This document shows positions 12,796-39,409 of a DNA stretch of 47,929 nucleotides, piece after piece. The stretch comes from an uncultured Oscillospiraceae bacterium. Its GTDB lineage: Bacteria > Bacillota > Clostridia > Oscillospirales > Oscillospiraceae. Under the pieces are notes generated by a model that saw nothing but the letters and a program-made list of their open reading frames with translations, had not been told where the DNA came from and made no database searches. The position numbers were made by a program, and so were the translations under genes. The stretch's first letter is position 1. Each line of letters opens with the position of its first letter. The stretch lies in assembly GCA_947625965.1 (NCBI GenBank), contig CANQQO010000006.1:1-47929 (forward strand), in the 5' to 3' direction.

Positions 12796-13555
12796 GGTTT
12801 TCTCCTATGCCCTCCATAAGTAGTGATTTGTAAAAATCCAGGGTGGAAAAGCCCCGCTCCAACTGGGTGGCCAGATACGCCTCCGTCACCCGGGCCAGGC
12901 GGCGGCAGCTCTCCTCCGGCAGGCGGAAGGAAAAGAGCTTTTTGGGCTCGCAGACACACAGATATCGCATGGCGTCCAGCTCCCCCGGCCGCAGAGGCAT
13001 CCGCAGGCCCCCGGAGCGGTCGGAACGGCAGTTCACGCACTCCAAACGGCCGGCGGACAGATCGAACCGGTCCGCCTCCGCCCGTCCGCAGACGTGACAG
13101 CCCGACAGGTCCGGGGTATACCCCGCCAGGCAGGCCACCCGCAGCTCGAAGACCGCCTTCACCATGGCCTCCGGCAGGGAAAGGGCCGTCAGAGCGTGGA
13201 GGCAGTTCAGCGTCAGACTCAGCAGCTCCGGGTTGGGCAGGTCCTCCTGGGAGATGACCTCCGCCACTTGAGCGAAATAGGTCCCCAGGGCCAGCTTCTG
13301 AAGGTCCTTCCGCAGGCCCAGAAAGGGCTCCACCGGCGCGGCCTCGTTGATGGTGTACATCCCCCGGTACTCAAACAGGGTAAATTCCCCCAGGGTCAGC
13401 AGTTGGCAGACCCCCGAAAGGGGGCTGTTCCGCCGGCGGAGGCCCCGGGCCTTGACCGTGAGCTTTCCGTGGCCGCCGGTGAGCAGGGTCAGCAGGGCGT
13501 CCCGGTCATTGTAGTCCGTGACCCGCAGGACCAGGCCCCGGATCGTCAAATACAT
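12788..13555 (-). CDS. recO: DNA repair protein RecO
   Basis: MYLTIRGLVLRVTDYNDRDALLTLLT N-terminus; CxxC...C Zn site (CHVCGRAE..LECVNC). Confidence 0.9.
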   Translation of the reverse strand: MYLTIRGLVLRVTDYNDRDALLTLLTGGHGKLTVKARGLRRRNSPLSGVCQLLTLGEFTLFEYRGMYTINEAAPVEPFLGLRKDLQKLALGTYFAQVAEVISQEDLPNPELLSLTLNCLHALTALSLPEAMVKAVFELRVACLAGYTPDLSGCHVCGRAEADRFDLSAGRLECVNCRSDRSGGLRMPLRPGELDAMRYLCVCEPKKLFSFRLPEESCRRLARVTEAYLATQLERGFSTLDFYKSLLMEGIGENHV

Positions 13556-23107: not shown

Positions 23108-23452
23108 TTAGAACAGCCCGCCCAGGTTCAGCCCGCCGGTGAGACGGGACATGGAGTTGGCGGAGTCCGTCTCCGCCGCCCGCAGGGCCTCGTTTACAGC
23201 GGCGATGACCATGTCCTGGAGCATTTCCACGTCGTCGGGGTCCACCGCCTCGGGCTTGATCTCCAGGTTCAAAAGCTGATGCTTGCCGTTGACCGTGGCG
23301 GTGACCATCCCGCCGCCGGCGGCGGAGGAATAGGTCTTGGTCTCCATTTCTTCCTGAATACGCAGCATCTCCTGCTGCATTTTTTGGGCCTGCTTCATCA
23401 TCGCGGCCTGATTCATTCCGCCGGGCATCCCCCGGAATCCACCTTTTGCCAT
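23108..23452 (-). CDS. ybaB: YbaB/EbfC family nucleoid-associated protein
   Basis: MMKQAQKMQQEMLRIQEEMETK..., between dnaX and recR. Confidence 0.94.
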   Translation of the reverse strand: MAKGGFRGMPGGMNQAAMMKQAQKMQQEMLRIQEEMETKTYSSAAGGGMVTATVNGKHQLLNLEIKPEAVDPDDVEMLQDMVIAAVNEALRAAETDSANSMSRLTGGLNLGGLF

Positions 23453-23463
23453 GGTAACAACTC

Positions 23464-25074
23464 CTAGTCTTTAATATTTATGATCTCTGAATGGTCCCGG
23501 CCGAAGCGGAGGAGCCGCTCCATGGGACCGTTGTTCGCGGGTCTGCTCGACAGGTCCACCGCCGCAGCGCCCACCTGCCGGTTCAGAATGGCGCCGGCCT
23601 TCTGGGCGACCAGGCTCAGGATCTCCGGCTTGTTGACCATCTGATAGGTAAACGAATTGGTACATTGCAATACCACCTGACCGTCCCGGTAGACGCCCTT
23701 CACGGGGGCGTTGTCCGTGGCGGAAAAGAAGCCGGAGGCCGGCGGGGACAGGCTTTTCCGCACTGCGGCGGCCACCTCGGTCCAGAAGCCCAGAGGGACC
23801 TCCTCCGCAGGAGGCTCCGGCGGGACCTCGGTCTCCGGCTCCGGCACCGCTTCGGGTCCTTCGGACCGGGCCGGGGCGGGGCCGCTCACCGGGGTGCCGG
23901 GCTGCGGCTGGGGGGCGGGGAAATCGCCCCTTTGGAGGCGTTCCTCCAGACGGGTCAAACGGGAATTCATGGCCTGGGCGTCCAGGGACAGCTCCGGCTG
24001 GCACAGCTTCAGAATACACAGCTCCGCGTCCATCCGGCGGCTGGCGCTGCGGACAAAGCCGGCGGCGCACGTTTGAAGCTCCTCCATTATCCGGGCCAGC
24101 TCCCCCGTGGAGAAGCGGCCCGCAAGGGTCTGGGCGTCCCGGTCGTCGGCCACGCCGGAGAGCATGGGAAGCCCCGCGTCCCCGGCGGTCTTCAGGATCA
24201 GCAGGTCCCGGGTCAGGCAGGCCAGCTCGTCCAGGAGAGCCCCCAGGTCCTTCCCCTCGGAATAAAAGCGGTTGAAGAGGGCCAGGGCACCCTTCGTGTC
24301 CCGGTCCGCCACGCGGCTCAGGAGGGCGGCGCTGCCCTGGATGCCGGCAATACCCAGGCAGTCGCACACGGTCTGGGCGTTCAGCTCGCCGGAGGTGGCG
24401 GAGGCGCACTGATCCAGCAGACTCAAAGCGTCCCGCATACCGCCGTCGGCCAGGCGGGCCAGGGTCCGGGCGGCGGAGTCGTCCAGGTCGATACCCTCGT
24501 GATACGCCACGTATTGGAGCCGTGCGGCGATCTCCTCCGCGCTGATGCGCCGGAAGGCAAAGCGCTGGCACCGGGACAAAATGGTGGCGGGGACCTTGTG
24601 CAGCTCCGTGGTGGCCAGGATGAACAGCAGATGCTTGGGCGGCTCCTCCAGGATCTTCAGCAGGGCGTTGAAGGCGGAGATGGAGAGCATATGGACCTCG
24701 TCGATGATATACACCCGCATCTTCACCTGGGAGGGGGTGTAGACCGCGTCGTCCCGCAGGTCCCGGACGTTGTCCACCCCGTTGTTGGAGGCGGCGTCGA
24801 TCTCCAAAACGTCCATGCAGGAGCCGGAGTCGATGGCCTGGCAGGCGGCGCAGCGGTTGCAGGGGTTGCCGTCCTGGGGGTCCAGGCAGTTCACCGCCTT
24901 GGCCAGGATCTTGGCGCTGCTGGTCTTCCCGGTGCCCCGGGAGCCAGTGAACAGATAGGCGTGGCCCAGGCGGCCGGTGGCGATCTGGTTTTTCAGGGTC
25001 TGGGTCACCGCCCGCTGGCCCACCACATCGTCAAAGGTCTGGGGACGGTATTTACGGTAGAGAGCCTGGTACAT
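23464..25074 (-). CDS. dnaX: DNA polymerase III subunit gamma/tau
   Basis: MYQALYRKYRPQTFDDVVGQRAVTQTLKNQI; GSRGTGKTSSAKILAKAVNC; the ORF-track N-terminal extension runs into the SRP RNA and was rejected. Confidence 0.95.
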   Translation of the reverse strand: MYQALYRKYRPQTFDDVVGQRAVTQTLKNQIATGRLGHAYLFTGSRGTGKTSSAKILAKAVNCLDPQDGNPCNRCAACQAIDSGSCMDVLEIDAASNNGVDNVRDLRDDAVYTPSQVKMRVYIIDEVHMLSISAFNALLKILEEPPKHLLFILATTELHKVPATILSRCQRFAFRRISAEEIAARLQYVAYHEGIDLDDSAARTLARLADGGMRDALSLLDQCASATSGELNAQTVCDCLGIAGIQGSAALLSRVADRDTKGALALFNRFYSEGKDLGALLDELACLTRDLLILKTAGDAGLPMLSGVADDRDAQTLAGRFSTGELARIMEELQTCAAGFVRSASRRMDAELCILKLCQPELSLDAQAMNSRLTRLEERLQRGDFPAPQPQPGTPVSGPAPARSEGPEAVPEPETEVPPEPPAEEVPLGFWTEVAAAVRKSLSPPASGFFSATDNAPVKGVYRDGQVVLQCTNSFTYQMVNKPEILSLVAQKAGAILNRQVGAAAVDLSSRPANNGPMERLLRFGRDHSEIINIKD

Positions 25075-25097
25075 GATGTCCCCCTTTCCAGAATAGG

Positions 25098-25396
25098 GAC
25101 CGGTTCCTAACAAGATCGCACACCCACATTTGAGCCAGCCGAACACCCGGTTTGCGGGCAGCCAGCTCAGGAACGGTGACCCCACGGCACACGAGATGAT
25201 CCGCTTAATGCTGCTTGGTTCCCCACCTGACATGGTTCACGGGATCTCGTTGCGCGGGACCGGTCCATCAACGCCGCTTACCCGCGCCTGACGGCACTCG
25301 GACAAGCCCTGGTGTGGGGATTCATCCCTGCTAGAGCGGATTGCAGGCGACAGGGCACCGCTATCTCCCCGACTAGTGCGACCTTGCTACGAACCG
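25098..25396 (-). ncRNA. ffs: Signal recognition particle RNA (large, Bacillus/Clostridium type); ends approximate
   Basis: Minus strand contains GTCAGGTGGGGAACCAAGCAGCATTAAG (GGAA-tetraloop helix 8 domain) and complementary ends GGTTCGTAGCAAGG.../...CTTGTTAGGAACC; upstream of dnaX as in Clostridia. Confidence 0.88.
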
Positions 25397-25423
25397 GTCC
25401 TTCGCGCAAGGAAATATGAAAAT

Positions 25424-25645
25424 TCAGCCCAGCTTGGACTCAATAAAGTCCGCCAGCTCCTGGAAGGTAGTGATCTTCTGATCCTCCATATCCAGTTCCA
25501 CGCCCAGCTCGCTCTCCAGGTCCATGATCATTTCCACCACGTCCAGGGAATCAATGCCAAGGCTTTCAAAGGTGCTGTCCGGCTGGATCTGTTCGGGCTC
25601 CAGCTCCAACTGCCGCGAGGCATAGTCAACTAGCTTTTCATACAT
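25424..25645 (-). CDS. acpP: Acyl carrier protein
   Basis: LGIDSLDVVEMIMDLE phosphopantetheine site. Confidence 0.94.
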   Translation of the reverse strand: MYEKLVDYASRQLELEPEQIQPDSTFESLGIDSLDVVEMIMDLESELGVELDMEDQKITTFQELADFIESKLG

Positions 25646-25682
25646 AGCGCGTTCCTCCTAGTTCAAATACCTGGAACGTATT

Positions 25683-26954
25683 TTAATACAAATCCTGGCG
25701 TTTGTCAATCTCTGTTTTTTCGCCTGCGGCACGACCGGCGGCAAAGCCCGTGGCCCAGGCGATCTGAAGGTTAAAACCGCCGGTGTAGGCGTCGCAATCG
25801 ATGATCTCTCCGGCAAAATAAAGGCCGGGGACCTTTTTGGAGGCCATGGTCCTGGGGTCGATCTCCGAAACGGCCACACCGCCGGAGGTGACGATGGCCT
25901 CGGCCACGGGCCGCCTGCCTGTGATGACCACCGGGAAGGCTTTCAGAAGGGCGCAGAGGGCCTGGCGGTCCCGCCGGGTCAGGGCGTTGGCGCTGAGCTC
26001 CCCGTCCAGGCTCAGACGGCGGAGAAACACGGGGATCATGGACCGGGGCAACAGGGCGGACAATATGTGGGCCAGGCTCCGGTTGGGGAATGCGCCCAGC
26101 TCCCGCAGGAGGCGGGCGTCCAGCTTTTCCGGGGTCAGGGCTGGCTTCAAATCAATGAAAAGGGTGCATTTCCCCGTCAAATGGGCGCTGGCGCTGAGGA
26201 CCGTGGGCCCCGAAACGCCGAAATGGGTAAACAGAAGTTCCCCGAAGTCCTCATAGAGGACCTTCCCCCGGCTGTCCTTCAGCTTGACGGCCACGTTTTT
26301 CAAGGAAAGTCCCTGCATTTCCGGGCAGTCCGGGCCCTCGGTCTCCAGGGGGACCAGACTCCCCTGCCCCGGGACCACGGTATGCCCCAGGGCGGCGGCA
26401 AGGGCGTAGCCGTCGCCGGTGGAGCCGGTGGCGGGATAGGAGAGGCCGCCGGTGGCCAGGATCACCCAGCCGGCGGAATAGACTTCCCGCTCCGTTCGAA
26501 CGCCGCAGACGGCGCCGTTTCCGGTGAGGATCTCCTCCACCCTGCCCTGCTCCACGCGGACGCCCCCACGTCTCAGCGCGGTTTCCAGGGCGGCGAGGAC
26601 GCTGGCGGAACGGTCGGAGACGGGAAAGACCCGGCCTCCCCGCTCGGTCTTCACCGGACAGCCGTTGGCCTCGAAAAAGGCCATCACCCGCTCCGGCGGG
26701 CAGGCAGCCAGGGCGCTGTGGAGAAAGCGGGGGTTCCGGGGGACGTTTTCCAGCACCTCCCGGGCAGAGCAGTTGTTGGTCAGATTGCACCGGCCCTTGC
26801 CGGTGATCAGCAGCTTCCGGCCCAGGCGGCCGTTCCGTTCCAGGAGAAGGACCCGCTGGCCCCGTTCCCCAGCGGCGATGGCGGCGAACATCCCCGCCGG
26901 GCCGCCGCCCACCACGATCCCGTCAAACGCCGTCGGGACGCTTTTCGTAGACAT
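25683..26954 (-). CDS. NAD(P)/FAD-dependent oxidoreductase (HI0933/YhiN family)
   Basis: GIVVGGGPAGMFAAIAAGERG, LLITGKGRCNLTN, ASKKVPGLYFAGEIIDCDAYTGGFNLQIAWATG. Confidence 0.92.
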   Translation of the reverse strand: MSTKSVPTAFDGIVVGGGPAGMFAAIAAGERGQRVLLLERNGRLGRKLLITGKGRCNLTNNCSAREVLENVPRNPRFLHSALAACPPERVMAFFEANGCPVKTERGGRVFPVSDRSASVLAALETALRRGGVRVEQGRVEEILTGNGAVCGVRTEREVYSAGWVILATGGLSYPATGSTGDGYALAAALGHTVVPGQGSLVPLETEGPDCPEMQGLSLKNVAVKLKDSRGKVLYEDFGELLFTHFGVSGPTVLSASAHLTGKCTLFIDLKPALTPEKLDARLLRELGAFPNRSLAHILSALLPRSMIPVFLRRLSLDGELSANALTRRDRQALCALLKAFPVVITGRRPVAEAIVTSGGVAVSEIDPRTMASKKVPGLYFAGEIIDCDAYTGGFNLQIAWATGFAAGRAAGEKTEIDKRQDLY

Positions 26955-32100: not shown

Positions 32101-32120
32101 TTGCATTTTGGAAAAAAATG
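32101..32120 (+). repeat. Left att core (attL)
   Basis: ttgcattttggaaaaaaatg, identical to 39340-39359. Confidence 0.8.
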
Positions 32121-32240
32121 CAACTAAATAAGCTCCCTCATTTTCATGCCACAATATATTGTGTCCATTGTTCCTAATTCCTGATTTTTTCCACAATATG
32201 TAGAACCATCAAATTCCCATGTCATTGACTCACGAAGGAT

Positions 32241-32262
32241 TTACTAAAAATTTACTAAAAAT
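32241..32262 (+). repeat. Tandem 11-mer (ttactaaaaat x2), probable integrase arm-type site
   Basis: Same motif appears twice at the other end (39161-39182). Confidence 0.65.
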
Positions 32263-32285
32263 CATGAAGACCAGTACAAGTATGA

Positions 32286-32312
32286 GGGAGGGCTGCAAAA
32301 CGCGGCCCTCCC
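32286..32312. terminator. Hairpin/terminator-like structure inside element
   Basis: GGGAGGGC...GCCCTCCC; a second hairpin AGGGGC/GCCCCT at 32328-32347. Confidence 0.55.
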
Positions 32313-32885
32313 ATTTTGCAAAAAGGGAGGGGCCCATAAGAGCCCCTCTAGATAAGGTACAATAAGTTACGCAAATTGCATATTGCAAAGAAGTAGACAC
32401 GGCTTGCGGTCTTTGGTACAATAAAGTTGCTACACAAACATAGGACATTACGGATGCACTATGAGGCAACAAAAAGTACATGAGCACGAAGCACTTGGAG
32501 ACCATGGAATCTCTGATGATGTGCTGGTAAGTTAGCAGACAGCCAAAGCGGTTTCACCGACTAAGGTAACGGATTTCTACCAGACTTATAACAGGCTTAT
32601 AAAATTTGTGCATAACTCTTGACAGTACCCGGATGTCCCGATTCAATCTCTATTACTGCATTTTTCTCTGCACGGCGACAGCATTTATTTTTTTCTTGCG
32701 CCAGAACCGGACAGACTATCCCTTAACGAGGGGCTTTCTATGTCAAATTCGGTTACTTTTTATTTACTCAAACGAGTAGCTTGCATAAAGATTCGTAAAA
32801 TCTGCGCGATTATGGATGAATAAAAGTAAATGCTTTTGCCGTGTTTTTCTCTACCCCAACTATTGACATAGAACCTAAATTCATG

Positions 32886-33557
32886 TTAGTATAAATCTTG
32901 AGCAAGAAGCATTTCCACATGCTCATCTGTAAGATAATTGGAGTGCGTAGGTTTTATCTCAGGATGCTTAAGAAAATACTTCAGCCTGGAGCGTTCCTCG
33001 ATCCCATTAAGAATATGCGCAAATGAAAGCAAGTTATAAGCGCCATCCTGCCTGATCTGATATAACTCACGCTCCCAATCGTCACGCTCTTTAGCTGTAA
33101 TTGGAACACCGGATGCAAATATATCTCTGTCTTCTTCGCAAACATCTTCAAAAATAGCTCGAGATACAGGCTTTCCGCAGAATGCGTAATCCACTCTTGC
33201 ATAAATAAAGGTGCAAAGAAGAGAAAGAGCTACAGTGATTGCTAGGTGTTCATTAAATGGCCACGTGAGCAAGTGACCATTTTCGTCCGGTTTATAATAT
33301 ATTGGATCAATTTTCTTTATTGGCTTCACTTTTAAAATGGCAATCATCATCGCAGAAGCCACTTTATGCCGATTTAAGACACCATTTTCATCCATCATAT
33401 AATGCTCTTTTGCGTATGCAATAATTTCATTATAGTTTTTTCTTATTTCTTCTGCTGTGCAGTCAGGGAGACATAACTTGCCATGGGTAGTTAATAAACT
33501 ATCATATGTAGGCAAAATAACTTTGTCCCATATTTTATAAAATGTAGATTCTTTCAT
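32886..33557 (-). CDS. Hypothetical protein (223 aa), third gene of AT-rich cassette
   Basis: Clean ORF with balanced composition; AT-rich coding; no family assigned. Confidence 0.75.
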   Translation of the reverse strand: MKESTFYKIWDKVILPTYDSLLTTHGKLCLPDCTAEEIRKNYNEIIAYAKEHYMMDENGVLNRHKVASAMMIAILKVKPIKKIDPIYYKPDENGHLLTWPFNEHLAITVALSLLCTFIYARVDYAFCGKPVSRAIFEDVCEEDRDIFASGVPITAKERDDWERELYQIRQDGAYNLLSFAHILNGIEERSRLKYFLKHPEIKPTHSNYLTDEHVEMLLAQDLY

Positions 33558-33574
33558 TTCCTGAAGTCCTTCAA

Positions 33575-33754
33575 TTAGTTGATATTAGTCAAACGTAAAT
33601 ACTTTTCACAAATATCATCCAAATAAACATCTCCATTTTGTTCTCGCTCTTGTGCGCATATTGTTTTGTTATGTATAACGACTCTATATGCAGCGTAAAA
33701 GGAAAGAGAAGCTATAACACATATTGCAATAATAATTATTATAACGTCAGTCAT
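33575..33754 (-). CDS. 59-aa single-TM small protein, second gene of cassette (just below ORF-track cutoff)
   Basis: Hand translation MTDVIIIIIAICVIASLSFYAAYRVVIHNKTICAQEREQNGDVYLDDICEKYLRLTNIN*; ATGA overlap with the stop of the upstream gene. Confidence 0.75.
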   Translation of the reverse strand: MTDVIIIIIAICVIASLSFYAAYRVVIHNKTICAQEREQNGDVYLDDICEKYLRLTNIN

Positions 33755-34224
33755 TTTATATCAACCTTACCCTTTTTATAATTGTTTGCTTTTTTATGTG
33801 CATATTGGGTAATCCTGCGCTTCCCAAAATTTCGATTGAAAAGTTGCATTATGCAAACGCCAAGTGGATAAAATTTAATTGGCAAACTCGCGATCGGAAG
33901 AATTATAATTAACATGCGTATTCCTGGTGAAACTGATTCCTGAAAAGAATTAGCGGGTATTATAATAAGACAAGACAAAAGAAGTACCAAATGAATTATT
34001 CCGATAGCGAAACAAACAACTAATGCCCAGAATACATTAGCATTGCCAATTCGCAAAGATTGAAAGTCTTCGCAGAAATCTACAAATAAAGGGAAAAAAT
34101 AAATTAGCGCTGTAAGAATTATAAGTATCCTATTATCATTAGAAATTGCGTAAGCATATGCGATATACCCTGCAACGCAGAAAATCAATGACAGACTCGA
34201 TCCAGTAATTGATTTAGCTCTCAT
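33751..34224 (-). CDS. Multi-TM membrane protein (157 aa), first gene of cassette
   Basis: About four hydrophobic segments, basic C-terminal tail (RNFGKRRITQYAHKKANNYKKGK). Confidence 0.75.
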   Translation of the reverse strand: MRAKSITGSSLSLIFCVAGYIAYAYAISNDNRILIILTALIYFFPLFVDFCEDFQSLRIGNANVFWALVVCFAIGIIHLVLLLSCLIIIPANSFQESVSPGIRMLIIILPIASLPIKFYPLGVCIMQLFNRNFGKRRITQYAHKKANNYKKGKVDIK

Positions 34225-34575
34225 AATTTACCATACCTCATATGTCATAATCAAATCTTTTCTGCTTGTGATTATACCATATATTTTCCGTTTTTCAATA
34301 GTTTTTTTCCAATTTCTTTCATATTTTTTTAAAAAAAGACATATTTATGTAAACTGGTCATCAAAATATTGCCGAAAACGAACGGTTCTTTCACCCTGCG
34401 GTGTGGCATCCCACTTTTTCCCGAAGCAGTTTATAAAGTTATTGTCCTTTTGATTGTATTGTCCTATGTACAGCATTGCAATATATATGAGACTCAGGGG
34501 GGGATAGAAAAAGGCGATTGAGTTCGTTAGAATAACGTTCCCACACACGATTCTGAACGAGAGCACCCAATCGCC

Positions 34576-34689
34576 ATGAACAGTGTAGCACAAGACAGGA
34601 AAAAAGCACAAGAGATATTTGCCGCACGAGCTAACGGCATGGATACATTCGGTAGAACTGTACCAGCAAACGAAAGATATTGGGTTTAA
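34576..34689 (+). CDS. 37-aa small ORF of unknown status
   Basis: Hand translation MNSVAQDRKKAQEIFAARANGMDTFGRTVPANERYWV*; protein-like composition but weak RBS. Confidence 0.3.
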   Translation: MNSVAQDRKKAQEIFAARANGMDTFGRTVPANERYWV

Positions 34690-35230
34690 CAATCATCAAT
34701 AGCTCCCCGCCAACGTGGGGGTGGGCGGCAGGCTTGTTACTCGGGAGGAGAGGGGCCCATACCGTATGGGGCGTGCCATACGTTAATTTCGTCCCGTCAT
34801 CCACGACGCACCACTGCTCGATGATCTGTCTGGTATCTCTGGAGATCCATTTCAGAAGGTGGTTGCATTGTATCAGCTTCGCCCGGGTATACACCGTGGT
34901 GTTGGCGTCCCGTTCGTTCACCAGCCAGTAGTTCTCCATCCAGTAGACCAGCGAACCCAGCTTAATGTCCTCGTGGGGAAGGGAGAAGATCGACTTCTCG
35001 TTTAAGTTGTCCGAATTGATAATGGCCACATTTTGGGTGATCTTGTGTTCCTGCGCCTCCTGGGAGGTGATGTTGTACCCGTAGGCGCTAGGGTAGATCT
35101 CCGCCGTGTGGTAGGACAGGCTGTCCGGCAGCTTCGTGTTCAAAAAGCGGTATTCCCGCTCCAGGGTTGCCCCTCGCTTTGTGCCGCCGTGGGCGTCCAC
35201 CCTGCTTTGGTAAAGGCCCCACATTCCCAT
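34631..35230 (-). pseudogene. Phage head-tail connector/structural protein, apparently truncated at its 3' end
   Basis: Coding-like to about YGTPHTVWAPL; the C-terminal ~40 aa look unrelated and run into the AT-rich junction. Confidence 0.5.
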
Positions 35231-35231
35231 T

Positions 35232-35564
35232 TCAGCCAGCTCCTTTGTACTGCTCCCGCATTTGCTCGCAGACCCGGATGGCCTTGAACACCTCCCGCTT
35301 CACGGTTGGCACCGTGGCGGTGGGGCTCTCGATCAGGAACTGTAAAATCGCCAGGAGCTTAAGGAACCTGGAGTCCAGGGCCAGCCCGTCGATCAGATCC
35401 CCGCAGCCCATCAGCTCGTTTCGCAGGCTCTCCATGTAAACCGTCAGGCTTGGCTCGTTGCTCTCCCGAATGGGCAGGATCTTGAAGAAGCTGTTGATCA
35501 GCGAGTCAAAGAAACGCCCAACCAGCTCATCCGAAACCGGCGTACCCGCCGCCGTCTCGATCAT
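35232..35564 (-). CDS. Phage structural-region hypothetical protein
   Basis: 110 aa, 1-bp overlap/packed with neighbouring phage genes. Confidence 0.6.
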   Translation of the reverse strand: MIETAAGTPVSDELVGRFFDSLINSFFKILPIRESNEPSLTVYMESLRNELMGCGDLIDGLALDSRFLKLLAILQFLIESPTATVPTVKREVFKAIRVCEQMREQYKGAG

Positions 35565-36007
35565 TAGTGCAGCTCCGTCAGAGCGCCATGGTTGTAGCTG
35601 TACTCTCTGACCATCTGGACGTAATCCCTCTGGGCCTTTTCATAGGTCGTCCGTACCTGTTTGGAGAGCTCCGCCGGGGAGTAGGTGGTAAAGTCCCTGG
35701 TGTTCAGCGCGTTTTCCAGCAGCTCCTGCTTGTAGATGTAGGGTTTCAGCCATTGGACGATCATCCCCTCGGACAGGATCTCCACCAGCTCGTCGGCGTC
35801 CTCCTCCAGGAAGTCCGGTGTAAATTCCCGGGTCACGTCGTCCACCGCCGTCAGGTCGTATTTGCAGTTTTTCCTAAAACCGCTGGCGGCCCGTTTCAGA
35901 TACCCGTCCAGGAGGGTAGTCCGTCCTCCCTCCGGGATCTTCAGCAGCTCGAACTCTGTGATTTTGGACAGGAACGCGTCTTCGATCACATCATAGGAAA
36001 TCGTCAT
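35564..36007 (-). CDS. Phage structural-region hypothetical protein (head-tail adaptor-like context)
   Basis: 147 aa, tightly packed downstream of capsid gene. Confidence 0.6.
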   Translation of the reverse strand: MTISYDVIEDAFLSKITEFELLKIPEGGRTTLLDGYLKRAASGFRKNCKYDLTAVDDVTREFTPDFLEEDADELVEILSEGMIVQWLKPYIYKQELLENALNTRDFTTYSPAELSKQVRTTYEKAQRDYVQMVREYSYNHGALTELH

Positions 36008-36016
36008 AGTCCCTCC

Positions 36017-36568
36017 TTACCGCTCGATCAGCTCGATGTTCAAAGCCTCCTCGATGGCGTGGATCACCGAAAGGGAATCGATCTCGTTGTCCCGAATCAG
36101 CTCCTTGGCCCGGTAGGCGACGGAGCGCTTCTGTCCGTCAGACATCTCCTTCAGCACCCGCTTCAGGTCTGCCGCCTTCATCTTGAACAGATCGTCGAAC
36201 CGGTCGATGGGCACGGCGTTCCGGTAGTATTGCCGCACGCCCAGATAGTCCACGATCCACGGCTCGTCGAACATGAACCAGTTGCTCTCGAAGAACTTCT
36301 TGCTGGTGTTCTTGGCGTTCCGCAATTCCCGAAGCTCCATCTCCTGCTCATCTCCAAAGGCGCCCCAGACGAACTTCTCGCCGGTGCGGGAGCTGCGGTA
36401 GATCAGCTTCCCGTGGAACCCGTTCCGCACGGTTACATACTGGTTCGGGTCAACCTCCTTGGGGACGATGGGCTGCGCGGGCTGCTCCTGGACCACTTCC
36501 TCCGGGGTCGGGGCGGCGGTCTCCGCCTTCTTGGCGGCGCTTCTCTTTCTTGTGTTGGTGGTTGCCAT
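36017..36568 (-). CDS. Phage structural-region protein directly downstream of capsid gene
   Basis: 183 aa; charged N-terminal tail then VTVRNGFHGKLIYRSSRTGEKFVWGAFGDEQEMELRELRNAK. Confidence 0.65.
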   Translation of the reverse strand: MATTNTRKRSAAKKAETAAPTPEEVVQEQPAQPIVPKEVDPNQYVTVRNGFHGKLIYRSSRTGEKFVWGAFGDEQEMELRELRNAKNTSKKFFESNWFMFDEPWIVDYLGVRQYYRNAVPIDRFDDLFKMKAADLKRVLKEMSDGQKRSVAYRAKELIRDNEIDSLSVIHAIEEALNIELIER

Positions 36569-36623
36569 AGTTCATATCCTTTCTTTCAAGCCCGGCGGAA
36601 CACCGCCGGGCGTATGTAGATGC

Positions 36624-37793
36624 TTAGGTCATCTCGTAGCGGCCAATGCCGGTGTTCCGGCCGGCCAGCAGGATGCCCATGCCGTACTTCTCGGCGTACA
36701 GGTACTCCTGGGTCAGGTCCGCGTTAGTCATGGGGTTGCCCAGCAGGACCAGAGGATCGCCCTCGTAGACCACCTTGATGGGCTTGGAGTCGCCGGCGAT
36801 CACGGTCACATAGTCGTCGGCCATGATGAAGTCGGTGGTGCCCACCTTGTAGCGCTGAGGCACTACGGCCACGGGCGTGCCGTAGAACTTGCCGGCGTAG
36901 CCCATCGCGTGGAGCTCGTCCTTGGCGCCGTCGCTGTCGATGCTCTCCTTGATTTTCCGCAGAGCCTTCTTGGTGCCGACGATGGTGGCAGGCTTGCCGC
37001 CGGCGGCGGCTTCCACATGGGCAACCAGATCCAGCAGCTCGTCCTCGTCGAAGGCGCCGGCCTGGGGGAAGTAGGTCTCGCCGCCGAACTGGTCGGCAGT
37101 GGCGCCGCCCCACAGGGTGTAGATGTCGTTGAGCAGCTTCTGGCGGAAGGACTCGGACACCCGGGTGATAAAGGTGTTGAAGTCCACCCGACCGGCAAGG
37201 ACCCGGTTCAGCTCCTCGTAGATGCGGACCGCCTTCATGGAGGTGGGGATGGTGGTGGAGGTGGAACCGCTCAGCCGCTGGCGGCGGATGCCCTGGGTGC
37301 CGTCGGCAACCTCGGCCACCACATACAGGTCGTAGTCCTCCACGATGAACTCGGGGGAGTCGCCCTGGGCCACGTTGCGGAACTCCACGAAGCTGTTGAA
37401 GTATTCGTCGCCCTGCAGACCTTCCACCACAGTCACGTTCAGAATCTGTTCGATGATGGAGAACAGGCCGACGCACTTGCCGTCCCGGATGTCTCGGATA
37501 TCCAGGTAGGTCTTGCCGTTGTTGGCTTCGATCAGCGCCTGGCGCAGGGCTTCCTGGCTCTGGCCGACGGAATACTTCTCGACCTTACCACGGAACCCAT
37601 CGATGCCCAGCTTGACGATAATCTTCTCGCTTGGTTCCACGAATCTGGTGCGTGGGCAAGCATTCTTTATTCGCTCCGCCTCATCCAGATATACCGCCAC
37701 ATAAATAAACCGCTTCTCCGGATGGGCATTGATAAATCGAATGGCAGCGCTGAACTTCCCGGAGCCCATGATCGCATCACACACATAGATCAC
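36624..37793 (-). CDS. Chimeric ORF: P-loop (helicase-like) N-terminus fused in frame to phage major capsid protein
   Basis: aa 1-~58 MIYVCDAIMGSGKFSAAIRFINAHPEKRFIYVAVYLDEAERIKNACPRTRFVEPSEK resembles a phage helicase N-terminus; the remainder (VVAEVADGTQGIRRQRLSGSTSTTIPTSMKAVRIYEELNRVLAGRVDF...IYTLWGG...VVYEGDPLVLLGN) resembles a major capsid protein. Confidence 0.7.
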   Translation of the reverse strand: MIYVCDAIMGSGKFSAAIRFINAHPEKRFIYVAVYLDEAERIKNACPRTRFVEPSEKIIVKLGIDGFRGKVEKYSVGQSQEALRQALIEANNGKTYLDIRDIRDGKCVGLFSIIEQILNVTVVEGLQGDEYFNSFVEFRNVAQGDSPEFIVEDYDLYVVAEVADGTQGIRRQRLSGSTSTTIPTSMKAVRIYEELNRVLAGRVDFNTFITRVSESFRQKLLNDIYTLWGGATADQFGGETYFPQAGAFDEDELLDLVAHVEAAAGGKPATIVGTKKALRKIKESIDSDGAKDELHAMGYAGKFYGTPVAVVPQRYKVGTTDFIMADDYVTVIAGDSKPIKVVYEGDPLVLLGNPMTNADLTQEYLYAEKYGMGILLAGRNTGIGRYEMT

Positions 37794-37812
37794 AGGTCTG
37801 CACCGTCCTTAC

Positions 37813-37850
37813 CGCAATACGATATAATGGGTCTACATACTTGTATTGCG
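37813..37850. promoter_or_regulatory. Integrase promoter region with operator-like inverted repeat
   Basis: CGCAATAC (37813-37820) / GTATTGCG (37843-37850) flanks the plus-strand -10 TATAAT (37823-37828). Confidence 0.65.
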
Positions 37851-37875
37851 TCTTTCCTCTTGAAAGGAGGCTCTT

Positions 37876-39144
37876 ATGTCTGAAAGACGCGACAACAAAA
37901 ATCGCAAACTCAATCCTGGAGAATATCAGAAGTCAGACGGGCGGTATATGTACCGCTATAAAAGCGCCAGCGGGGAGACTCGGTTCCTGTACAGTTGGAC
38001 CCTGACGCAGACGGACCGCACGCCAGCCGGAAAGCAGCCCGGTCCATGTCTTCGGGAGCTGGAGCGGGACGCTCTCAAAGACGTGTCGGACAATATCGAC
38101 GCCGGGCGGGCCAAGCGGGCAACACTGAACCAGCGAATCGAGGAATTTCTGGCGCAAAAGCAAAAAATCGTCCGGCAATCCACCTTCGCCGATTACTACA
38201 GTTTCTGGAAGAAACATATCTGCCCAGATCCAATCGGGAGGATGGAACTGACAAAGGTCCGCTACAGCGACGTGAAAAAGCTCTATTTTCATCTGCGTTA
38301 TGATGTGGGGCTTCGGGCAAGATCTATTGGCAAGGTTCAGCTTATTCTCTCGCAGGTGTTTGACATCGCTGTGCGGGACGGACTTATCCGCATGAACCCC
38401 GCGTCCCATGCTATGGACGAAATCCTGGCGGCTGACCGGCCGGAAAAGCGCCGCGCCCTCACTATTGATGAGCAAACAGCCTTTTTGGGTTTCGTGCGGA
38501 ACGATCCACGAGCCAAAGGTCTGCTACCGTTTTTCATCTTCCTATTCGGCACTGGCTGCCGATTTGGTGAAGCGGCCGGCCTTACCTGGAACGACTGCGA
38601 TTTTGAGCACGACATTATATCCATCAATCATGGGTCCACCTATATTAAGCCTGTCGGCGAGAGCAAGACGCGGCATTTCATCATCCCGTGTAAAACCAGT
38701 GCAGGCAACCGAGTTATACCCATGCTGCCGGAGGTACGAGAGGCGCTGATGAATATTCGTAGGATGCAAATGAGCTCCGGTTTCAGCAATCTTTGTATCG
38801 ATGGCTATTCCGGTTTTGTATTTATAAGCAAACATGGAAATCTTTTACTTAGATCGGTTGTAGATTATGATATCCTAAAAATTATCGAGCGCTATAATGA
38901 ACAGGAGACTGCCCACGCCAAGAAAGAGCATCGCTCCCCGCTGATTCTGCCCCGCTTTTCGGCGCATAACATCCGCCACACCTTCTGCACCCGCTTATGC
39001 GAGAACATCTCCAACATCAAGGTTATTCAGGAGGTAATGGGGCACGCCAACGCTTCCGTGACCATGAATATCTACAGTGAAGCCACCATGGATGCTAAAA
39101 AGCAAGCCTTCCAATCCTTAGATTCTAAAGCCCTGGCCTTGTAA
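37876..39144 (+). CDS. int: Phage/ICE-type tyrosine integrase (Tn916 Int-like)
   Basis: N-terminal arm-binding region (NPGEYQKSDGRYMYRYKS), FGTGCRFGEAAGLTW, HNIRHTFCTRL, VMGHANASVTMNIYSEAT; strong RBS AAAGGAGG. Confidence 0.94.
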   Translation: MSERRDNKNRKLNPGEYQKSDGRYMYRYKSASGETRFLYSWTLTQTDRTPAGKQPGPCLRELERDALKDVSDNIDAGRAKRATLNQRIEEFLAQKQKIVRQSTFADYYSFWKKHICPDPIGRMELTKVRYSDVKKLYFHLRYDVGLRARSIGKVQLILSQVFDIAVRDGLIRMNPASHAMDEILAADRPEKRRALTIDEQTAFLGFVRNDPRAKGLLPFFIFLFGTGCRFGEAAGLTWNDCDFEHDIISINHGSTYIKPVGESKTRHFIIPCKTSAGNRVIPMLPEVREALMNIRRMQMSSGFSNLCIDGYSGFVFISKHGNLLLRSVVDYDILKIIERYNEQETAHAKKEHRSPLILPRFSAHNIRHTFCTRLCENISNIKVIQEVMGHANASVTMNIYSEATMDAKKQAFQSLDSKALAL

Positions 39145-39160
39145 AATGCGCTAAGGTCCG

Positions 39161-39182
39161 TACTAAAAATCGTACTAAAATT
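39161..39182 (+). repeat. tactaaaaat / tactaaaatt repeats, probable integrase arm-type sites at right end
   Basis: Same orientation and motif as the left-end pair 32241-32262. Confidence 0.65.
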
Positions 39183-39339
39183 CAGTAGCCAAAATGAGAA
39201 ATTTTAAGAAGTTTTAAGAAAACCCAAAACGCAGGAAAAAAGAGGCCACATCCAAAATCGCAATATATTGTGTTATGCTCAAATTAAATCTACCATATCT
39301 TGCGTCAATCACCCTCTCTATTTTACAACATACAAAGCC

Positions 39340-39359
39340 TTGCATTTTGGAAAAAAATG
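39340..39359 (+). repeat. Right att core (attR)
   Basis: ttgcattttggaaaaaaatg, identical to 32101-32120. Confidence 0.8.
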
Positions 39360-39368
39360 TGATATAGT
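39340..39368 (+). promoter_or_regulatory. Predicted promoter of 39410 gene, overlapping attR core
   Basis: TTGCAT (39340-39345)-N17-TATAGT (39363-39368); second TATAGT at 39373 from 10-bp tandem repeat gatatagtat. Confidence 0.65.
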
Positions 39369-39409
39369 ATGATATAGTATTTTTACCAAGTAATGTGGGA
39401 GGGATCTTC

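Follow-up and report, generated by a model that had tools for sequence, protein, structure and literature searches.

An ATPase–capsid fusion reading frame, very probably left by a deletion in a defective SPbeta-like prophage

A YonV-like ATPase and a capsid protein of the phrog_4088 family are common to SPbeta-like phages (Spbetavirus; SPBc2/phi3T and relatives) and to related gut phages in IMG/VR, as are a YonO-like single-chain RNA polymerase, a YonF-like terminase and a portal in the position of YonE. For transcription of its structural cluster, SPbeta uses YonO (PMC8270828). The yonV gene of SPBc2 is encoded on the other strand from this cluster, whereas in the gut relatives the ATPase gene is found on the same strand, upstream of the cluster, which makes an in-frame join between the two regions possible. 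Here, we describe such a join in a stretch of 47,929 nt from an uncultured Oscillospiraceae bacterium (contig CANQQO010000006.1; hereafter the window).

A reading frame made of two phage genes

The original prediction, made from the DNA letters and a list of ORFs, had described a 389-aa ORF at 36624–37793 without naming a strand; this extent was exact, and the ORF lies on the minus strand (Table 1). With PHROG profiles, residues 2–49 aligned to positions 10–57 of phrog_2467 (profile length 502; E = 4e-7) and residues 56–377 to positions 4–323 of the 332 positions of phrog_4088 (E = 4e-73). By tblastn, the N-terminal 64 residues matched SPBc2 YonV and its relatives, and the rest matched structural or major capsid proteins of SPbeta-like and other large phages. 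Sequence and profile searches of the PDB returned no match for either half, nor did a DNA search of annotated phages yield one. Judging from these alignments, the 389-codon ORF is a real chimera, in which codons 1–57 are the predicted beginning of a P-loop ATPase of the YonV-like kind known from SPbeta-type phages and codons 59–389 are an HK97-fold major capsid protein minus its first few residues. Since each half matches an intact gene of its own on a single related phage contig (88% and 96.7% DNA identity), the fusion is not a chance resemblance. The capsid assignment of the original prediction was thus borne out by both phrog_4088 and the near-parent gene described below. Its proposed phage P-loop helicase start proved to be a phrog_2467/YonV-like ATPase; the word helicase reflects family resemblance (P-loop, DE and QWIWRSAIR motifs), and none of the curated helicase models matched this part.

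Table 1. Features of the fusion ORF and of the element around it (window coordinates)
Feature	Position	Strand	Remarks
att repeat, left copy (TTGCATTTTGGAAAAAAATG)	32101–32120		perfect 20-bp direct repeat with right copy
223-aa gene, AT-rich accessory module	32886–33557	−	70% identical homolog in G043
59-aa gene, AT-rich accessory module	33575–33754	−	59% identical homolog in G043, same order
157-aa gene, AT-rich accessory module	33751–34224	−	54% identical homolog in G043
Head gene 5, truncated (exon 1 and ~26 nt of group I intron)	34760–35230	−	ORF continues to 34631
Head gene 4, 110 aa, intact	35232–35564	−	phrog_5523; order as in L041, L005–L010
Head gene 3, 147 aa, intact	35564–36007	−	phrog_3853; order as in L041
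Head gene 2, 183 aa, intact	36017–36568	−	phrog_13983; order as in L041
Fusion ORF, 389 aa	36624–37793	−	GTG start at 37793, stop at 36624
Major capsid part (native gene minus first codons)	36624–37620	−	L041:10000–10996, 97% identical protein
Deletion junction	37620/37621		22,593 bp of near-parent absent
ATPase part (first 57 codons and 2 nt)	37621–37793	−	L043:665–837
Gene upstream of ATPase, last codons (GKDGADL stop)	37794–37814	−	L043:644–664
Tyrosine integrase, Tn916-type DNA-binding domain	37876–39144	+	PF02920, PF00589
att repeat, right copy (TTGCATTTTGGAAAAAAATG)	39340–39359		perfect 20-bp direct repeat with left copy

The original prediction had named full-length homologs with the same N-terminus in intact phages as the finding that would speak for a normal capsid gene. 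In our scan of the capsid family (71 loci, 50 of them with a full-length capsid ORF), the helicase N-terminal segment was present in none of the 50 full-length viral relatives. All 50 carried the native start (M..x.DIV), in a sample that leans to native starts because one of the two search patterns contains this start, while the other does not. A Shine–Dalgarno word lay within 25 nt of the native start in 39 of the 50, and the in-frame space before it never exceeded 49 codons and was mostly below 15. These 50 proteins, like the 97%-identical one of the near-parent, start 6–7 residues before the fused part. Together with the separate genes of the near-parent, the native starts refute the idea that the N-terminal part is a natural domain of the capsid protein, a reading for which we found no support and whose probability is negligible.

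Some capsid genes of the family were irregular in other ways. At eight loci the capsid match began only at residue 77 (L008, L105, L112, L113, L115, L124, L127 and L131), and in three IMG/VR relatives (L109–L111) the capsid gene was split. Both patterns suggest that introns or homing elements interrupt the major capsid gene in several IMG/VR relatives.

The near-parent phage and the deletion junction

Both halves of the fusion were found on a 37-kb contig (CANQSU010000005.1; loci L041 and L043) of the MAG uncultured Oscillospiraceae bacterium Lapin-026 bin114, which we refer to as the near-parent. Here, the ATPase and capsid genes are each separate and complete, on one strand and 22.6 kb apart. 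The ATPase gene (contig bases 665–1942) has a GTG start and 425 codons, and the gene before it (63–668) ends in GKDGVDL, overlapping this GTG. The capsid gene encodes 337 aa from a start, MNNIDDIVKLGIDGF, at ~23,414 that is preceded by the ribosome-site word AAGGAGG; its product begins with MNNIDDIVKL. Read on the minus strand, window positions 37814–37621 correspond to near-parent bases 644–837 (170 of 194 identical, 88%) and positions 37620–34760 to bases 23431–26291 (2766 of 2861 identical, 96.7%, gap-free). The two matches abut with no overlap and no inserted base, so that both breakpoints could be mapped and the junction fell between 37621 and 37620, inside the interval of 37595–37625 anticipated by the original prediction. 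Not a single nucleotide was shared at the register of the junction and the longest common word nearby in the near-parent sequences was 7 nt, values that are measured against a mosaic relative rather than the true parent. The synonymous divergence (dS) from the near-parent was 0.64 for the ATPase half, which has only 38 synonymous sites, and 0.13 for the capsid half. As the halves differ in their identity to the near-parent, the true parent was a mosaic relative of it, which makes the deleted length an estimate.

In near-parent coordinates, the deleted span comprises the rest of the ATPase gene, a YonO-like RNA polymerase (PF05183; 25% to YonO, E = 6e-27), a terminase (43% to YonF) that is interrupted by group I introns, and a portal (phrog_2739), in addition to a calcineurin-like phosphoesterase, a tyrosine recombinase, an HU-like protein and two more head genes. 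Terminase and portal were the two genes whose loss had been expected from the window alone. Group I introns abound in the late genes of the near-parent: three interrupt the terminase gene (L041:3277–4872), and one in head gene 5 is followed by a homing-endonuclease-like ORF (MEGMETAANKSCWKVYVHVNKNNGKRYVG) that is GIY-YIG-like by eye, both within L041:12853–13861.

The same gene order was seen in four IMG/VR contigs of 119, 115, 50 and 53 kb, each with a complete ATPase gene and then a complete capsid gene on one strand, their starts ~15.0, 16.2, 16.5 and 15.3 kb apart, respectively. The two genes lie on opposite strands on a fifth contig (108 kb), and this arrangement is recorded for the SPbeta-like contig G155 (L010, L026 and L062).

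Taken together, these data make it very probable that the fusion is the scar of an in-frame deletion in a now defective SPbeta-like prophage. The phage, or its remaining part, would have sat between two 20-bp att repeats beside scpA, with its ATPase and capsid genes on one strand and in that order. Illegitimate recombination without shared sequence would then have removed ~22.6 kb and joined ATPase codon 57 to capsid codon 6, the join happening to keep the frame. Further losses would have taken the region before the ATPase start and, beginning inside the intron of head gene 5, all that followed, leaving a relic unable to make phage, with terminase, portal and YonO-like RNA polymerase gone.

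The exact junction sequence was absent from the viral contigs searched, and neither the fusion nor the capsid had a copy among the genomes of 148 relatives. The fusion comes from a draft assembly (110 contigs, 92% completeness), where fusion and capsid are single copy, and wrongly joined reads or contigs of one phage could have created it without its being present in the cell. However, there is no shared sequence at the join and therefore no repeat to mislead an assembler, the reading frame is kept across it, and the host sequence on either side is matched in same-genus genomes without the element. Nor did the assembly contain a second capsid copy or any trace of the phage portal, the latter in a search of this 92% complete genome that was run without a positive control. 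An assembly chimera is therefore very unlikely.

The integrated element around the fusion

The fusion is part of a 7.26-kb element (32101–39359) beside scpA. Three same-genus genomes lack the element; in these, scpA adjoins the gene at 39395, with a single attB of similar sequence (TTGCATTTTAGGGAAAAGTATG) between them; together with the perfect att repeats at both ends, these empty sites identify 32101–39359 as an integrated element. From left to right, it consists of an AT-rich module, head genes 5 (truncated), 4, 3 and 2, the fusion and the integrase. With att repeats, an integrase and an empty site in relatives, the element qualifies as a defective prophage; five head genes are all that it retains of the phage's lytic program, and other essential lytic genes are missing. 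A capsid-carrying satellite of the cfPICI-like type was considered and rejected, since genes for terminase, portal, protease and replication are all absent from 32101–39359, leaving no complete packaging or head module.

The integrase, which points to the right end, has kept its catalytic residues R, HxxR and Y in a motif check; given these and the perfect att repeats, the relic might still excise. The att core holds a TTGCAT that resembles a −35 element for the gene at 39395 (window 39340–39385), and integration duplicates this hexamer, so that the host promoter may be kept.

On both sides of the fusion, the phage homology stops abruptly. It ends on the right at 37814, forming a third junction at 37814/37815, and on the left at 34760, where the homology of head gene 5 to the near-parent stops at L041:12860, within a group I intron annotated by Rfam (12853–13137). 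Exon 2 of head gene 5 is missing from the window, in which Rfam detected no remaining group I intron. At least two other joins or breaks therefore flank the fusion, pointing to more than one deletion.

These ends are also what would be expected if an integrative element unrelated to the phage, made of the integrase, the att repeats and the AT-rich module, had captured a 3-kb phage fragment that was already fused. The integrase had no match in near-parent-like phage contigs except one at 39% identity, and searches of viral contigs with the integrase and the 223-aa protein gave nothing. The 157/59/223-aa module occurs in G043, a genome of another species of the genus, outside a recognizable phage context. 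On the other hand, the one integrase match, of the same Tn916 type, is carried by the SPbeta-like contig G155 (none of the other contigs examined had such an integrase), and accessory genes adjoining the att site are usual in prophages. We consider capture unlikely, though it is the most serious competitor of a scar in a prophage whose integrase would have come from the same phage. As neither the integrase nor the left AT-rich module has a close match in phage contigs, the element may be a mosaic instead of one decayed phage.

In G043, the module is found on two contigs, is conserved in order and sits downstream of a 297-aa ORF that is ParB-like by eye. No known defense or phage family matched the module at 32886–34224, the 223-aa gene had no match in PHROG, Pfam, NCBIfam or PADLOC, and PADLOC found no known defense gene within the element.

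Integrity, expression and comparison with known prophages

The Walker A motif of the fusion reads GSGKF, compared with GSGKS in the near-parent, a serine-to-phenylalanine change that departs from GxGK[ST]. The DE box and the QWIWRSAIR motif, both kept in L043, L004 and SPBc2 YonV, were deleted. With its single Walker motif altered and the other two motifs gone, the ATPase part is predicted to be unable to work.

In the capsid part, 57 helicase codons replace both the native N-terminus, M(A)xMxDIVKL, and the gene's own ribosome site. A first AlphaFold model (7 sequences) had a mean pLDDT of 45 and was set aside. The model from 38 sequences mostly reached pLDDT 70–85 at residues 54–389 and had no usable confidence at residues 1–53. 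The best Foldseek matches of the capsid model were the P. furiosus virus-like particle, encapsulins, HK97 and lambda, with E down to 1e-9 and TM up to 0.54 by target. The HK97-like fold for which the original prediction had suggested a check is thus predicted for the capsid part by a model of moderate quality.

The capsid part shows no sign of decay. Compared with the near-parent, the five head genes have omega values of 0.035–0.074 and neither stops nor indels over 2.86 kb; the window capsid has zero private changes at 93 conserved columns, and at four of its six differences from the near-parent it agrees with the family majority. Either functional phages account for nearly all of this divergence, which would make the deletion recent, or selection is still acting. 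The same data, along with an integrase and att repeats that look intact, would fit a functional chimera, in which selection keeps the capsid and next head genes in the truncated element, for example as a satellite-like set of head genes or because the protein interferes when superinfecting relatives assemble. But a recent deletion predicts the same pattern, Walker A has been lost and head gene 5 cut short, a promoter-like site was not found upstream, and the fusion is absent from all other genomes and viral contigs searched. Retention by selection is therefore highly improbable. Even less probable is its narrower version, an expressed fusion kept as a superinfection-resistance gene, the 58 foreign N-terminal residues poisoning the heads of incoming SPbeta-like relatives. 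Returning to the deletion scar, the lack of decay in the capsid part suggests that the deletion is probably recent, a simpler account than ongoing selection.

We found no support for the original suggestion that the fusion places capsid protein under the control of an early gene. Only ~21 nt remain of the sequence that preceded the ATPase start, and a search of 37600–37950 detected no sigma-70-like promoter site. As the YonO-like polymerase has been deleted as well, expression of the fusion is unlikely, and the late genes of the relic are most likely silent.

As a scar of prophage decay, the fusion is thus unusually clean but ordinary in other respects. Since in-frame joins are expected in one third of random deletions between same-strand genes, it is tidy rather than surprising, and the general picture is unchanged by it. 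It does provide a base-resolved case in which the decay of a prophage gave rise to a new chimeric ORF, and for which both intact parent genes and unoccupied integration sites are known. It also serves as a warning for annotation, as the ORF would be named a P-loop-containing capsid protein, a combination found in no phage. The closest parallels are the cryptic or 'grounded' prophages Rac, e14, DLP12 and Qin (PMC6379469), which have likewise kept integrase and att repeats, and in which, as here, large deletions took replication, packaging and most structural genes; the relic in the window measures 7.26 kb compared with >100 kb for its phage relatives. What sets the relic apart from cryptic prophages such as Rac is that a single deletion fused two coding regions without loss of frame, so that a complete ORF resulted.
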